From assembly GCA_017420455.1 (NCBI GenBank), contig JAFOJB010000247.1, positions 1 through 12,919 on the forward strand: a stretch of 12,919 nt of DNA. Direction: 5' to 3'. This stretch comes from Blautia sp. (lineage in GTDB: Bacteria > Bacillota > Clostridia > Lachnospirales > Lachnospiraceae). This document shows, one piece after another, positions 5,798 to 12,919 of this stretch. How positions within the stretch are numbered: the stretch's first letter is position 1; each line of letters opens with the position of its first letter. The position numbers were made by a program, and so were the translations under genes. Under the pieces are notes generated by a model. It made no database searches, had not been told where the DNA came from, and worked only from the letters and a program-made list of their open reading frames with translations.

Positions 5798-7558
5798 ATG
5801 AGACATAATATGAAGAAGATCGCTGCACTTACCGTAGCGGCAGCTATGGTGTGCTCCCTGGCGTCCGGATGCGGCGCTTCAAAGCTTGACGGTACGAAGA
5901 CGGTTGTCACAGTAAACGGAACAGAAATCCCGATGGGTGTCCTGAGTGTGGCAGTACGTTCTGAGCAGGCACAGATGGAAAACATTTACAAGATGTATTT
6001 TGGGGCAGGAATGAGCATCTGGGACGGGGCCGATGAAGAAGAAGGCACCTACGGCAATGCTACCGTCAAAAATATACTGAAGCAGCTGGAGCTTGGCGTC
6101 ATCAGCAAGGAAAAGGCTTCGGAATATGGTGTGGAAATTCCGGAGGAGCTGTCTTCTTCTATGAAGGAAGCCGCAAAGGCCTTTATGGCGGCAAACAGCG
6201 AAGAAACTCTGGCTGAACTTGCCGTGACAGAGGATCAGGTAGTTCAGTACCTGGAACTGGAGACTTACCGTGATATGGTATATCATGAGTATGTGGAAAG
6301 AGCGGAAGTGGTTGTCACGGATGAGGAGGCAAATCAGACATCCTTCCTGTATACGTCCATTCCGGTAGATGCGGACGAAGAGACTGCGGAAGAGGAAGAA
6401 GAGACAACCGCGGAGCCTGCAGAGGCAGTCGAGACCCCGAAGGCAGAGGAAGAAACCGCAGAGGCAGCCGAGACCCCGAAAGCAGAAGAAGAGGCAGCGG
6501 AGGCACCTGCAGAGGTCAGCGCAACACCGGAAGCAGAGGAAGCCGCAGAGCCCAGTGTAACGCCGGAGGCAGAGGAAGCCGCAGAAGTCAGCGTGACACC
6601 TGAGGCAGAGGAAGCCGCAGAGCCCAGCGCAACACCTGAGGCAGAGGAAGCCGCAGAGCCCAGCGCAACACCGGGGGCAGAGGAAGCTGCAGAAGTCAGC
6701 GTGACGCCTGAGGCAGAGGAAGCTGCAGAAGTCAGCGTAACACCGGGGGCAGAGGAAGCCGCAGAAGTCAGTGTTACTCCTGAAGCATCTGTAACACCTG
6801 CAGTGGTCAGTGTAGTTCCGGAAGTTTCAGAGGCACCTGCAGAGGAAGAAGCTCCTGCCATTACAGCTGCAGAGAAGGCACAGAAAGTCCTGGAAGTGTA
6901 CAACGGGAACACGGATGCAGACCAGACAGCGCTGCGCGAAGCTGTTCAGGCCGTGGATGATTCCCTCTATGTATATTCCGGACATTTCACAACCGCGTCA
7001 GAGGACAATGACACCTCTTATCCGGACGCGGTTCTGGAAGTTCTGAGATCTCTTACCGATGGACAGGTTGGCACGGAAGTGATCGAGACAGAGGACAACC
7101 TCTATGTGGTACGGCTTGAGAAGGTCCTGGATGAAGATCAGACAGAATCCACCAGAACCTCTCTGGAAAATACCAAGAAGCAGGATGCTTATACAGAAGA
7201 GTCTGACAAATGGATCGCAGATGCCAGCATCAAGGTTGCAGATAAGGTTCTGAAGAAACTGACGCTGACAGATAAGCATACCTTCACCGTAATTACTCCG
7301 GAGCCTGAAGAGACGGAGGAAGCAGACGGTGAGACCGTAGAGGATTTTGACGAAGAAGCCGTGGAAGTCATTGACGACATGGAAGATACTGCGGAGGAAG
7401 CCGGTGAAATCGTAGAAGACGCAGCTGATGCGGCAGAAGATACCGTTGACGCAGCCGCTGAAACAGCAGCGGAAGCTGCAGAGACTGCAGAGGAAACCGC
7501 CGATGCAGCAGCGGAAACTGCAGAGACAGCAGCGGATACCGGGAAAGCATCTAACTGA
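5798..7558 (+). CDS. PrsA/SurA-like parvulin-type foldase lipoprotein with acidic repeat insert
   Basis: The protein has 586 residues. GGAGGA (5782-5787) precedes ATG 5798. A lipoprotein signal peptide (MRHNMKK, hydrophobic core, SLASG|C) predicts cleavage before C25 and anchoring on the outer membrane face. Residues ~33-178 (TVVTVNGTEIPMGVLS onward) resemble the SurA/PrsA N-terminal chaperone region. A first parvulin strand (NQTSFLYTSIPVD, 179-191) is followed by a low-complexity acidic insert (about 191-354) with seven tandem 12-residue repeats. The parvulin-like sequence then resumes (TAAEKAQKVLEVY from 356; AVLEVLRSLTDGQVGTEVI from 411; NLYVVRLEKV). Residues 500-586 form a Glu/Ala-rich, probably helical tail. 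Family members help exported proteins fold, some by prolyl isomerisation; activity here is uncertain because the PPIase domain is interrupted and degenerate. It has its own promoter and terminator, and its place after mfd is common in Clostridia. Confidence 0.82.
   Translation: MRHNMKKIAALTVAAAMVCSLASGCGASKLDGTKTVVTVNGTEIPMGVLSVAVRSEQAQMENIYKMYFGAGMSIWDGADEEEGTYGNATVKNILKQLELGVISKEKASEYGVEIPEELSSSMKEAAKAFMAANSEETLAELAVTEDQVVQYLELETYRDMVYHEYVERAEVVVTDEEANQTSFLYTSIPVDADEETAEEEEETTAEPAEAVETPKAEEETAEAAETPKAEEEAAEAPAEVSATPEAEEAAEPSVTPEAEEAAEVSVTPEAEEAAEPSATPEAEEAAEPSATPGAEEAAEVSVTPEAEEAAEVSVTPGAEEAAEVSVTPEASVTPAVVSVVPEVSEAPAEEEAPAITAAEKAQKVLEVYNGNTDADQTALREAVQAVDDSLYVYSGHFTTASEDNDTSYPDAVLEVLRSLTDGQVGTEVIETEDNLYVVRLEKVLDEDQTESTRTSLENTKKQDAYTEESDKWIADASIKVADKVLKKLTLTDKHTFTVITPEPEETEEADGETVEDFDEEAVEVIDDMEDTAEEAGEIVEDAADAAEDTVDAAAETAAEAAETAEETADAAAETAETAADTGKASN
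6512..6787 (+). repeat. 36-bp in-frame tandem repeat (seven units plus a partial eighth)
   Basis: Seven consecutive 36-nt units (6512-6763) encode E-(V/P)-S-(A/V)-T-P-(E/G)-A-E-E-A-A, and a partial eighth unit follows. Units differ at a few positions, such as GAGCCC/GAAGTC and CCGGGG/CCTGAG, giving EPS or EVS and PEA or PGA variants. The period is a multiple of three, so copy-number changes would keep the foldase reading frame. Less regular (E/A)TPKAEEE(T/A)AEA copies precede it from about 6420. Confidence 0.95.
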
Positions 7559-7829: not shown

Positions 7830-9509
7830 ATGAAAATACCTGTCGGGAAAGAAGATTTTGACGAGATCCGAAGAAATCATGATTATTATGTGGATAAAAC
7901 AGAACTGCTTTACCGGCTGGCAGAGGGAACAGGCAATGAGGTGACACTCTTCACCCGTCCCCGCCGTTTCGGAAAAACATTGATGCTGAGTATGATGGAA
8001 AGCTTTTTCAGTATCCAGAAAAAGGACAGTCACGAAGTTTTTGATGGTCTGGATATCATGAAGCATGAAGAATTCTGTGACAAATGGATGAACCAGTATC
8101 CTGTTCTGAATGTGACGCTGAAAGGTATTGAGGCGCTTTCTTTTGAAGAAGCCTACAAATTACTGCAGGTTAAACTGTCGGATCTATGTAAGAAACATAC
8201 CTCTCTTCTGGAAAGTGATGCAATCGACGCAGACGATAAAGAAATTTTCCGGAATCTGAAGGATCGGAAGGCATCACCGGAAATTGTGAAAGGTTCTTTA
8301 AAGACGATCATGCGGATGATGGCTGCCTGCTATGGAAAACCGGTAATTCTGCTGATCGATGAATATGACGTTCCTCTGGCGAATGCGAGCGAGATGGATT
8401 CGAAAGAAAACGGATACTATCAGAAGATGCTCGACGTGATTCGGGGAATGTTTGACGCGGCGCTTAAAACGAATGAATATCTGAAGTTTGCTGTTGTGAC
8501 AGGATGTCTGCGGATAGCTAAAGAAAGTATTTTTACAGGGACAAACAATTTTATGTCCTGTTCGGTTCTCGATGACATCTTTTCAGAGTATTATGGATTT
8601 ACGCAGAAGGATGTGGACAAGATCCTGAAAGATGCGGACAGAACAGAAAAAGCGGAGGTGATACGGGCCTGGTATGATGGATATGTTTTTGGAAACACAC
8701 ATGTCTACTGCCCCTGGGATGTGACAAATTATATTGCGGCACTTCTGCAGAAGGAAAACGCGAATCCAAAAAATTACTGGAAGAATACAAGCCACAATGG
8801 AATTCTTCTGACTTTTGTGAAACGAACAGATTTTGATGTGAGCGATAAGTTTGAAGCGCTTATGAACGGAGGCACTGTTCTTCAGACAATTTCAGATGAA
8901 CTGACTTATGATACGCTTCACGAATCGGAAGAAAATCTGTGGAGTGTCCTTCTGATGACCGGGTATCTTACAAAGGCTGATCCCGAAGCTGAGGGCAATA
9001 CTGTGGAACTGAAAATACCAAACGAGGAAATTCAGCATATTTTCGAAGAAACGGTTGTAAGATTCTTTAAAGACTCTCTTTCCCTGGATCGGTCAAAGCA
9101 GAAAGAGTTGATGGAAGCTCTTTGGAAAGGGGATGAAGAAACCGCCTCACAGAAAATGACGGACATCCTTTTTGAAACCATCAGCTACCATGACTACCAT
9201 GAGGACTATTATCATGCATTTTTGACAGGCATCATTTCCGGTCTTGGATATGCGGTGAAATCAAATCAGGAGAATGGTCTGGGAAGGTCGGATATTGATG
9301 TGAGAGAAAAACGGAGAAAACGTGGAATGCTTCTGGAGGCAAAGAAATCGGATAAAGAAGAGAATATGCTTAAGGATGCACTGGAAGGAAAAAAACAGAT
9401 TCTGGATAAGGAATACCTGAGGGGATTTGACGGATTTGAGTCTGTAGTCTGCTATGGAATTTCGTTTTTCCAGAAAAAAGCGCTTGTCAGGAAACTTCAA
9501 TTTCAGTAA
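7830..9509 (+). CDS. AAA-ATPase-like protein with C-terminal PD-(D/E)XK nuclease-like domain
   Basis: The protein has 559 residues; AGAGGGGGAGA upstream of ATG 7830 sets the start. The N-terminus (MKIPVGKEDFDEIR, YYVDKTELL) and RPRRFGKT (43-50, Walker A) are hallmarks of the AAA-ATPase-like family (PF09820). Walker B is LLIDEYDVPL (D177, E178), and VTGCLRIAKESIF (223-235) is the family's conserved sensor-like motif. The C-terminus carries a PD-(D/E)XK-type core: GLGRSDIDV (D488/D490) followed by LLEAKKS (E503, K505). All nuclease-core residues are present, so the gene looks intact. This family is abundant and often multicopy in gut Clostridia and Bacteroidetes; its function is not established, and a DNA-directed accessory or defence role is only inference. 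Codon use is more AT-rich than in neighbours, suggesting acquisition. A weak promoter candidate is TGGAAT (7728-7733)/TATAAA (7751-7756). Confidence 0.92.
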   Translation: MKIPVGKEDFDEIRRNHDYYVDKTELLYRLAEGTGNEVTLFTRPRRFGKTLMLSMMESFFSIQKKDSHEVFDGLDIMKHEEFCDKWMNQYPVLNVTLKGIEALSFEEAYKLLQVKLSDLCKKHTSLLESDAIDADDKEIFRNLKDRKASPEIVKGSLKTIMRMMAACYGKPVILLIDEYDVPLANASEMDSKENGYYQKMLDVIRGMFDAALKTNEYLKFAVVTGCLRIAKESIFTGTNNFMSCSVLDDIFSEYYGFTQKDVDKILKDADRTEKAEVIRAWYDGYVFGNTHVYCPWDVTNYIAALLQKENANPKNYWKNTSHNGILLTFVKRTDFDVSDKFEALMNGGTVLQTISDELTYDTLHESEENLWSVLLMTGYLTKADPEAEGNTVELKIPNEEIQHIFEETVVRFFKDSLSLDRSKQKELMEALWKGDEETASQKMTDILFETISYHDYHEDYYHAFLTGIISGLGYAVKSNQENGLGRSDIDVREKRRKRGMLLEAKKSDKEENMLKDALEGKKQILDKEYLRGFDGFESVVCYGISFFQKKALVRKLQFQ

Positions 9510-11196: not shown

Positions 11197-12603
11197 ATGA
11201 AGAAGAACAATTATCTGGAGGAGCTTTGCCGCGGGGCGGCGCTTAGCCGTACACAGCAGCTGCAGCTGATTACCTCCTTAAGTATTCCCGCGATATTCGC
11301 TCAGATCAGTACGGTTGTGATGGACTATGCGGATCAGTCCATGGTAGGGCGTCTGGGAGCAGTTTCCTCGGCAGCCATCGGCCTTGTGGCTTCCAGTACC
11401 TGGCTGGTCTCCGGTCTCTGCCAGGCCGCCGGGGCGGGCTTTACTGTCCAGGTGGCGCACAGGATCGGAGCCGGAAAGGAGAAGGAGGCCAGAGCTCTGG
11501 TACGCCATGGGCTGTTCTGCGCGCTTTTTTTCAGTGTAGTCCTGTCGGGAATCTGCCTGCTGCTTTCAGGGTATCTCCCGGTCTTTCTGGGAGGCAGTGA
11601 AAAAATCCTGGGGGAGGCTTCCCGTTACTTTCTGGTTTTTGCGCTTTCCCTTCCGTTCATACAGCTCTCCCGCGTGTCGGCGGGGATGCTCCAGTGCAGC
11701 GGGAATATGAAAACGCCCAGCACCCTGAATATCCTGGCCTGTATTCTGAATGTGATCTTTAACTGGCTCCTTATTTTCCCTTCCGGTAAGATCGATCTTC
11801 TGGGAAAACAGATTTTCCGTCCGGGAGCAGGACTCGGCGTTACAGGGGCGGCTCTTGGGACGGCCCTGTCCAATGTGATCATCGCCTTATTGCTGCTGTG
11901 GTTTCTGCTGAAAAGATCACCGGCACTCCATCTTCGAAAGGAGGAGCCCCTCCCCTTATCCGGCAGAGAGCTGCGGACTGCCATACGGATCGCTGTTCCG
12001 GTGGGAGTCGAGCAGGCTATTATGGGGGGAGGATACGTCCTGGCGACCAGGATCATCTCTCCGCTGGGGAATATCGCCCTGGCGGCCCATTCCTTTGCTG
12101 TGACGGCGGAAAGCCTTTGCTATATGCCGGGGTATGGGATCGAGGCGGCAGTCACGACCATTGTAGGGCAGAGTCTTGGCGCTAACAGGAAAAAGGAGGC
12201 ACAGCATCTTGCCTGGTTTACCATTGGCTTCGGCATGCTGATCATGACAGGGACCGGCGTTCTTCTCTTTTTGTTCGCGCCGCAGCTGATGCGGCTACTT
12301 TCGCCGGATCCGGAGATCTGCGCTCTCGGCAGCCGGGTACTCCGGCTGGAGGCCTTCGCGGAGCCTATGTTCGCGGCATCCATCGTCGGTTCCGGGGTCT
12401 TCCGCGGCGCCGGAGATACCTTAGGACCGTCGATGATCAATTTCTGCAGCATGTGGGCGATCCGTCTGACTATGGGAGCTTTTCTGGCACCGAGATTCGG
12501 GCTTATGGGGATGTGGATCGCCATGTTTGTCGACCTCTGGGTCCGGGGAGCCCTGTTCCTGCTCCGTCTGAAAATGAAACCTGTCAGCGGATCTGCACTG
12601 TAA
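11197..12603 (+). CDS. MATE-family multidrug/toxin efflux transporter
   Basis: The protein has 468 residues, typical for MATE transporters, which use an H+ or Na+ gradient to export cationic drugs and metabolites across the cytoplasmic membrane. Hydrophobic segments throughout are consistent with 12 membrane spans in two homologous halves. The first half begins with LSIPAIFAQISTVVMDYADQSMVGRLG, matching the family TM1/loop signature; the second begins near residue 260 with IRIAVPVGVEQAIMGGGYVLATRI. GVTGAALGTALSNVI and GAGDTLGPSMI are further typical MatE motifs. ATG 11197 is the only practical start, since a TAA lies in frame at 11188-11190. The AGGA directly abuts the ATG, and the nearest usable Shine-Dalgarno (AAAGG, 11180-11184) is 12 nt away within a small hairpin, AGCGC/GCGCT (11171-11188), so translation may be weak or controlled. 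The substrate is not predictable. Both halves are complete. Confidence 0.95.
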   Translation: MKKNNYLEELCRGAALSRTQQLQLITSLSIPAIFAQISTVVMDYADQSMVGRLGAVSSAAIGLVASSTWLVSGLCQAAGAGFTVQVAHRIGAGKEKEARALVRHGLFCALFFSVVLSGICLLLSGYLPVFLGGSEKILGEASRYFLVFALSLPFIQLSRVSAGMLQCSGNMKTPSTLNILACILNVIFNWLLIFPSGKIDLLGKQIFRPGAGLGVTGAALGTALSNVIIALLLLWFLLKRSPALHLRKEEPLPLSGRELRTAIRIAVPVGVEQAIMGGGYVLATRIISPLGNIALAAHSFAVTAESLCYMPGYGIEAAVTTIVGQSLGANRKKEAQHLAWFTIGFGMLIMTGTGVLLFLFAPQLMRLLSPDPEICALGSRVLRLEAFAEPMFAASIVGSGVFRGAGDTLGPSMINFCSMWAIRLTMGAFLAPRFGLMGMWIAMFVDLWVRGALFLLRLKMKPVSGSAL

Positions 12604-12614
12604 CCCTTATAAGA

Positions 12615-12663
12615 TACAGTTCACGGCCTCACCGGCCTGGTACAGTTCACGGCCTCACCGGCC
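12615..12663. repeat. 26-bp tandem duplication
   Basis: A 23-nt segment at 12615-12637 (TACAGTTCACGG... ending CACCGGCC) recurs exactly at 12641-12663, separated by TGG. Each copy contains GGCC-TCACC-GGCC, which can form a short hairpin, so two small stem-loops lie just after the MATE stop codon. It might contribute to termination or transcript stability, or be a remnant of a longer array. Confidence 0.9.
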
Positions 12664-12734
12664 GGAGACTGATGCGTTCCCCTGGCGTTTTTGACAGACT
12701 GTGAGTCAGGAAACCTGGCGGCAGCCGGGAAACA

Positions 12735-12909
12735 GGGTGAGAAAGCTTCACCTTCCGGTGCAGAACCCCTTGAGCCTGCCTGAGGAGACAGCGCCTGCAT
12801 AGACTTAGGCGCGAAGGCTCTTCCTGAGCGTCTTAGTCTATGTTGGACGGTGGCTCCGAGGATCAGCAGGTGACGGGGTTCTGCACCGGAAGGTGAAGCT
12901 CTCTCACCC
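12735..12909. repeat. 175-bp palindromic element with 35-bp near-perfect inverted arms
   Basis: The left arm, 12735-12769 (GGGTGAGAAAGCTTC... to AACCCC), and the right arm, 12875-12909 (GGGGTTCTGCACC... to CTCACCC), are inverted copies differing at one base (12743). The 105-bp core is also palindromic: CATAGACTTAGGCGC (12798-12812) pairs with GCGTCTTAGTCTATG (12828-12842) with one mismatch and one G-U, and CCTGCCTGA (12775-12783) pairs with TCAGCAGG (12863-12870) with a bulge. The whole folds into one long interrupted hairpin. It has no coding capacity and no flanking T-run, and no obvious target-site duplication is seen. It could be a MITE/REP-like element or a structured RNA. Confidence 0.85.
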
Positions 12910-12919
12910 GTCAGCTATA

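Follow-up and report, generated by a model that had tools for sequence, protein, structure and literature searches.

Integron attC sites are imperfect hairpins that are read by their structure; their stem sequence is variable, and they are inserted without a duplication. The HEARO (IscB omega) RNA is a multi-copy structured RNA that is linked to mobile elements. The CGTC-tagged families of palindromes have 8–9 bp stems and a CCA tail and, in the cited part of the source, are reported from five phyla, Firmicutes not being among them (PMC3733652).

Here, we describe a long palindrome at the end of a 12,919-nt stretch of Blautia sp. DNA (the window). Like MITEs, the element to which the palindrome belongs is short, non-coding and present in many copies, and in the window's own genome (G000), its ends are inverted and some of its copies are flanked by 8-bp duplications. 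Unlike MITEs, it has a structured core that is conserved across genera, and its copies in a second genome (G014) have asymmetric ends and no duplication. The likeness to REPs, REPINs and CGTC-tagged palindromes lies in its dispersal, in an unpaired tag at one end and in close inverted pairs, and the right end of the G014 copies, GCGTCCG, contains the CGTC letters found in the CGTC-tagged palindromes (as described in the cited part of PMC3733652). However, it is not a GTAG- or CGTC-tagged palindrome of 20–40 bp, and it is without the 8–9 bp stem and CCA tail given in that part of the source. With attC sites, it shares hairpin features (an imperfect hairpin that would be read by its structure, a variable stem sequence and no duplication), and the arrangement is different: in this element it is the upper hairpin that is conserved and the arms that vary. 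Like HEARO, it is structured, multi-copy and linked to mobile elements; it differs from HEARO and the other Rfam families, to which the window had no match at gathering score. Taken together, the element works like a REP or a MITE, lacks the REP/RAYT features that were tested and has only part of the features of a MITE.

The Palindrome and Its Place in the Window

The two arms of the palindrome are 35 nt each and pair at 34 of 35 positions (97% complementary) across a spacer of 105 nt. On folding, positions 12720–12919 form one long rod on both strands, with an energy of −129.1 kcal/mol (z = −11.1) on the plus strand and −124.0 kcal/mol (z = −12.7) on the minus strand, and on either strand none of 200 shuffles was equally stable. 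A first-pass annotation, made from the sequence alone, had described a palindrome with 35-bp arms that folds into a rod on either strand, which is borne out by these results. It had also stated that the palindrome is not a terminator and belongs to no RNA family that it recognised; both statements hold, as no intrinsic-terminator-like site was found within 12301–12919 and none of 4227 Rfam models matched the window at gathering score. At relaxed thresholds, the window gave only two Rfam matches (E = 1.1 and 2.7), far below gathering, and the loci of 10 relatives gave none at E ≤ 1. Similarly, no sigma-70-like site was found within 12301–12919. The gene upstream of the palindrome (11197–12603) encodes a MATE-type transporter (PF01554, E = 2e-58). 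As the window is an entire contig and stops within the element, the element's right end is missing. The features at this end of the window are as follows:

12615–12637, plus strand: extra copy of the shell's left end (repeat D17, 23 nt, 100% identical)
12641–12919, plus strand: MITE-like outer shell, starting at its left terminal inverted repeat and cut off by the contig edge, with the right end falling outside (compare contig C410)
12735–12769, plus strand: left inverted arm; holds A12743, a substitution private to this copy
12771–12869, plus strand: conserved folded core, with its structure on the plus strand (cmsearch with model R1, 53.2 bits, E = 3.5e-14)
12801–12838, plus strand: apical hairpin; GCGAAGGCTCTTCCTGAGC and its stem are the best conserved letters, and this part was the first to be found in congeners
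12875–12909, plus strand: right inverted arm

Copy Number and Spread

Further copies in the host genome, proposed as a check in the first-pass annotation, were found. The query 12720–12919 matched 10 places in G000 at E ≤ 1e-4, eight of which, the window's included, are at contig ends of this assembly (593 contigs, 78% completeness); in this genome, the copies of the element mostly fall at contig ends. The right half of another copy, on contig C410, continues into a second inverted end. At the same threshold, 38 copies were counted in G142 and 32 in G014.

The apical part alone (12801–12838, query positions 82–119) was present in 5 of the 41 congener genomes searched, the window's own included; it was matched as such in G006, G008 and G014 and lay inside longer matches in G003. 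The apical pattern occurs in at least 116 stretches of GTDB contigs, and the titles among the matches listed are Lachnospiraceae, Blautia, Hominisplanchenecus, Eubacterium and unnamed Clostridia, with the exception of 14 loci titled outside Clostridia or Lachnospiraceae, which were taken as chance matches. Copies are also present in a cultured strain, Blautia schinkii DSM 10518. When the covariance model was used instead, carriers numbered at least 20 of 250 Lachnospiraceae (one genome per genus, G000 included), at least 4 of 295 genomes in a sample of the order and at least 2 of 398 in a sample of the phylum, all of these counts being lower bounds because the stricter filters applied above 40 genomes lose weak matches and few candidates are scored per genome. 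All the carriers were Lachnospiraceae, in order and phylum samples for which the number of genomes outside this family is only partly listed. The element is spread patchily through the Lachnospiraceae, and in some gut and rumen genomes of this family its copies number in the dozens; no Rfam model was found for it. Phage and plasmid records were also searched at the DNA level and contained no match, and one viral contig that carries the apical letters was set aside after the structural model gave no match in it. The hairpin motif may already be among the candidates of a large-scale effort to predict structured RNAs from human microbiomes. The literature searches made here found no prior description of the hairpin element.

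The Conserved Core

The core alignment and its model were built from 25 diverse copies, none of them from the window's genome, and pairs were counted on a hand-written structure. Built without the window copies, the model nonetheless recovered the window's core on the plus strand (53.2 bits, 12771–12869), and it also recovered a second type of copy (type B; G003, RUG14852) that is quite unlike by its letters. In the 25 copies, 96.4% of the cells were paired and two-sided changes occurred at 18 of 27 pairs; the score for pairing and covariation was reached by none of 500 shuffles, and sliding the partners abolished the signal. Furthermore, RNAalifold, run without a supplied structure, returned nearly identical helices. 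The covariance model that the first-pass annotation had suggested building thus reveals a covarying core with matches across genera, and such a covarying, conserved structure is a feature of structured ncRNAs.

The core also contains mismatches that are nearly fixed. At two places of the stem, all 25 copies have T.T; a further two stem mismatches, A.G and G.A, are kept in 24 and 21 of the 25. In the apex, 24 of the 25 copies have G.A, and all 25 have A.G. The pairs adjoining these mismatches do vary. Among the 61 of 146 collected copies that are of type A and free of insertions, the four stem mismatches were kept in 61, 58, 60 and 55 copies. When read on the plus strand, the core has 35 G.U cells compared with 5 A.C cells, of which one pair alone contributes 17 of the 35; counted by site, 9 favor G.U and 3 favor A.C, a difference that is not significant (p = 0.15), and the plus strand is therefore suggested without being proved.

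The Arms and the Question of Strand

Do the arms tell us which strand is under selection? The first-pass annotation had taken the single arm mismatch, A12743, as a hint of selection for a minus-strand transcript. However, G occupies that position in 7 of 7 readable sibling loci (8 tried), and since A12743 is private to this copy, the mismatch is uninformative on selection for a transcript. Across 82 copies, 215 mismatches were counted in 3066 arm columns (56 G.U, 55 A.C and 104 other), and neither strand is favored; the count covers 82 of 146 copies, partly related to each other, the rest being short of flank or below the alignment score limit, with the chance loci among these. Nor does the core support the hint, as its G.U cells exceed its A.C cells on the plus strand, not on the minus strand. 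A minus transcript under selection is therefore not supported.

In the 12 type-B copies, the identity of the arms is 0.96 within a copy; it falls to 0.40 when different copies are compared (0.77 at most), and shuffled letters give 0.26. The arms of different copies are thus far-diverged relatives, whereas each copy is nearly perfect in itself. We read this as arms that are kept symmetric by a DNA-level process, and template switching is, in the cited part of the source, a published way of keeping hairpins perfect (PMC8794818). Template switching could likewise contribute to the core's covariation counts, and the fixed core mismatches are what it would not preserve; we read the core as selected for the fold of one strand. 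One molecule would in this way separate a fold-selected part from arms made symmetric at the level of DNA, which makes the origin and upkeep of long perfect hairpins directly testable. Some G006 copies, such as L032 and L035, have a further palindromic insertion within their right arm.

The MITE-like Shell

In G000, the palindrome lies within an outer shell, the end motif of which (ACAGTTCACGGCCTCACC) has 168 matches in the genome at up to 3 mismatches, compared with 0 for the reversed motif. The shell ends (GTTACAGTTCACGGYCTCACC) are inverted, as are the terminal inverted repeats of a MITE, a feature that the G014 copies do not have. The ends are:

GTTACAGTTCACGG: shell ends, candidate ends of a DDE-type insertion sequence

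The inverted ends of complete shells start with GTTACAG. Their interiors vary widely, with a bare 46-bp version at one extreme and nested palindromes at the other, and the right half of another shell copy was seen in L003. In the ten shells with both ends, perfect 8-bp duplications were present in two, 6 of 8 bases agreed in one more, and seven had none; at 8 bp, the mean identity of the flanks of these 10 copies was 0.47, compared with 0.27 in the between-copy control. One of the two shells with a perfect duplication, L102, interrupts an older shell. The stretch GAAAACACATCAGTC, which is unbroken in L121 and L109, is split in L102 by the insertion, with its last 8 bases repeated behind it; such a nested insertion is the trace that a DDE-type MITE would leave. 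In the window, the left end of the shell is present twice, at 12615–12637 and 12641–12663, 26 bp apart. At L018, L121 and L011 of G000, shell copies are adjoined by a second palindromic repeat around GGGGACGGTTCTTTTGTC, which we take to be common in Firmicutes.

Ends, Tandem Repeats and Paired Copies

The copies in G014 have asymmetric ends with fixed unpaired motifs. Their stem limits read CA[GCNG...CNGC]GTCCG, in which N and its partner form a T-A, A-T or C-G pair in 27 of the 29 rows that could be used (30 rows were analyzed, with a wrong left anchor in the cut locus L257). Beyond the stem, there is partial conservation without pairing, on the left side in the letters around CGATAYA and on the right side in T..G behind GTCCG. 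No target-site duplication was found in the 30 type-A rows of G014 or, by eye, in 12 type-B copies.

Tandem repeats begin within 4 bases of the right end in 7 of the 30 G014 copies. Any tandem repeat was present in 12 of 30 copies in the 300 bases downstream, in 11 of 30 upstream and in 2 of 14 control windows (only 14 controls). Beyond its first occurrence, GCGTMCG was found 14 times in 7,613 downstream bases, compared with no occurrence on either strand in the 8,967 bases upstream or in 4,200 bases of control sequence. We offer only the suggestion that the tandem repeats are linked to the insertion or replication of the element. The copies also form close divergent pairs with cores about 110–380 bp apart, minus then plus in all nine pairs seen:

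G142, contig C1: 963434/963921, 1050505/1050782 and 2992940/2993302, close inverted pairs
Others: G066, contig C12; G270, contig C18; G003, contig C161; loci L135, L160 and L202, close inverted pairs

In G014, for example at L246, L062, L065 and L260, degenerate tandem arrays begin with the element's right end, each with a unit of its own of 17–103 bp.

The Search for a Mobilizer

No mobilizing gene was found near 95 loci or among the families tested in 16 carriers. The genes near the 95 loci formed 27 recurrent protein clusters, and the 14 largest, which were listed, were mostly generic; the 14 chance loci were excluded from this set of recurrent genes and from the 30/65 orientation count given below. 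Ten cluster representatives compared with Pfam turned out to be transporters, regulators, a Mur ligase, a carbamoyl-phosphate synthase, peptidases and one PDDEXK_2 transposase (PF12784). This last family (5 ORFs at 3 loci in 3 genomes) was the sole recurrent transposase among the ten representatives run, and we regard it as a weak lead:

Loci L135, L139 (PF12784) and L166: PDDEXK_2 transposase genes up to 3 kb from element copies, in three genomes

Three families were tried as mobilizers and rejected, as each was missing from part of the carriers and all were also present in non-carriers (16 genomes of either kind compared). Y1_Tnp (PF01797) was missing in 8 of 16 carriers, including G014 (97% complete, 32 copies); RVT_1 had no match in 6 of 16 and only a match below the cut-off in G265; and IS110 had no match in 5 of 16 and matches only below the cut-off in two more.

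A replication-strand bias is expected of IS200-type single-stranded DNA transposition. No general bias was found (30 of 65; 15 of 38), although 16 of 20 copies in G014 agreed. The orientation relative to neighboring genes, determined by simple ORF calling, was not fixed in 20 G014 copies. Furthermore, the upstream gene's 10 best homologues (49–64% identical, from 60 congener genomes) had no core in their flanks of up to 1.5 kb, and a shell end was present beside one of them. The absence of the core from these flanks would fit mobility, although it falls short of a clean empty site. Many copies with empty sites had been expected of a MITE in the first-pass annotation: the many copies were found, whereas a true empty site was not seen for any element with the core.

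Nature of the Element

Many copies, a MITE-like shell with some 8-bp duplications and a covarying core without an Rfam match indicate that mobility and structure are both present. Our explanation, to which we give a probability of about 0.6, is that the palindrome is a copy of a non-autonomous, mobile-like hairpin element that is moved in trans and is carried here inside a MITE-like shell. The element looks more like a hitchhiking mobile element of an undescribed kind than like an artefact or one RNA gene. The candidates of the first-pass annotation (a MITE, a REP-type palindrome or an undescribed structured ncRNA) bracket this answer, in that MITE-like mobility and an undescribed structure are different layers of it; the REP-type candidate, which would involve RAYT, has been weakened.

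Could the core act as an RNA? A multi-copy structured ncRNA, with a transcribed core that functions at the RNA level (in protein binding, for example) and a spread by duplication or hitchhiking, would account for covariation with fixed non-canonical pairs, for the 35 G.U against 5 A.C cells on the plus strand and for the same structure in many genera. On the other hand, the long arms are symmetric without strand preference, 12301–12919 holds no sigma-70-like site, the orientation of the 20 G014 copies to neighboring genes is not fixed, there are up to 38 copies per genome, and a single-stranded DNA fold would covary equally well; we consider such an ncRNA unlikely. An ordinary MITE with a palindromic interior, a mere deletion derivative of a DDE insertion sequence, would in turn have no cause to preserve the conserved structure of the core, and in G014 the same core is joined to other, asymmetric ends and is without a duplication. 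This makes an ordinary MITE quite improbable for the element, in spite of the inverted shell ends, the 168 matches to their motif, the 8-bp duplications at some copies and the one nested insertion into an older shell.

A REP- or REPIN-type palindrome moved by RAYT (a Y1 HUH transposase) would be dispersed, with unpaired end motifs and close inverted pairs, as is seen here in several genomes. Nevertheless, PF01797 is missing in 8 of the 16 carriers, and the element measures about 200 bp compared with the 20–40 bp given for REPs in the cited part of PMC3733652, so we hold this origin to be very improbable. To an assembly artefact at the contig edge we give practically no weight. The contig does stop within the element, and contig ends adjoin 8 of the 10 strong matches in G000; however, copies with both flanks are present in other genomes, and the 38 copies within a single 3.6-Mb contig of G142 mean that the repeat breaks the assembly and is not made by it. 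The first-pass annotation had named the lack of any second copy or homologue together with the lack of a transcript, or an artefact of this kind, as fatal to its reading, and those 38 copies speak against both.

We return to the non-autonomous hairpin element moved in trans. In G000, the shell would carry the element, and a DDE-type transposase would move the shell in trans. Elsewhere, a structure-reading enzyme encoded at another place would recognize the plus-strand core as a single strand, either DNA or RNA, and would insert the element with its two unpaired ends. The arms would stay perfect because one arm is copied from the other during replication (template switching), and not through RNA selection. 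Beyond this, the element might represent a new class of mobile hairpin, in which a structure-recognized single strand is inserted without target duplication and the arms are rewritten in each cycle, a possibility that we put forward tentatively and consider rather doubtful. If it is true, self-primed or template-switched synthesis, for example, would rewrite the arms as perfect inverted copies, and each insertion would bear its own arm sequence and leave tandem copies of the end plus flank.

Other Features of the Window

The window begins with a low-complexity coding repeat rich in His and Asp (1–156; CAT and GAT triplets) ahead of a CobW-like gene; its composition is suggestive of the end of a metal-binding protein. 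The product of the gene at 5798–7558 looks secreted and has no Pfam match at E ≤ 1e-5; within this gene, positions 6461–6856 consist of 36-nt tandem units, called as eight overlapping copies, that encode an acidic repeat rich in E, A and P. The protein encoded at 7830–9509 combines an AAA-ATPase-like domain (PF09820) with a PD-(D/E)XK domain (PF08011), and this family is often expanded in gut bacteria.
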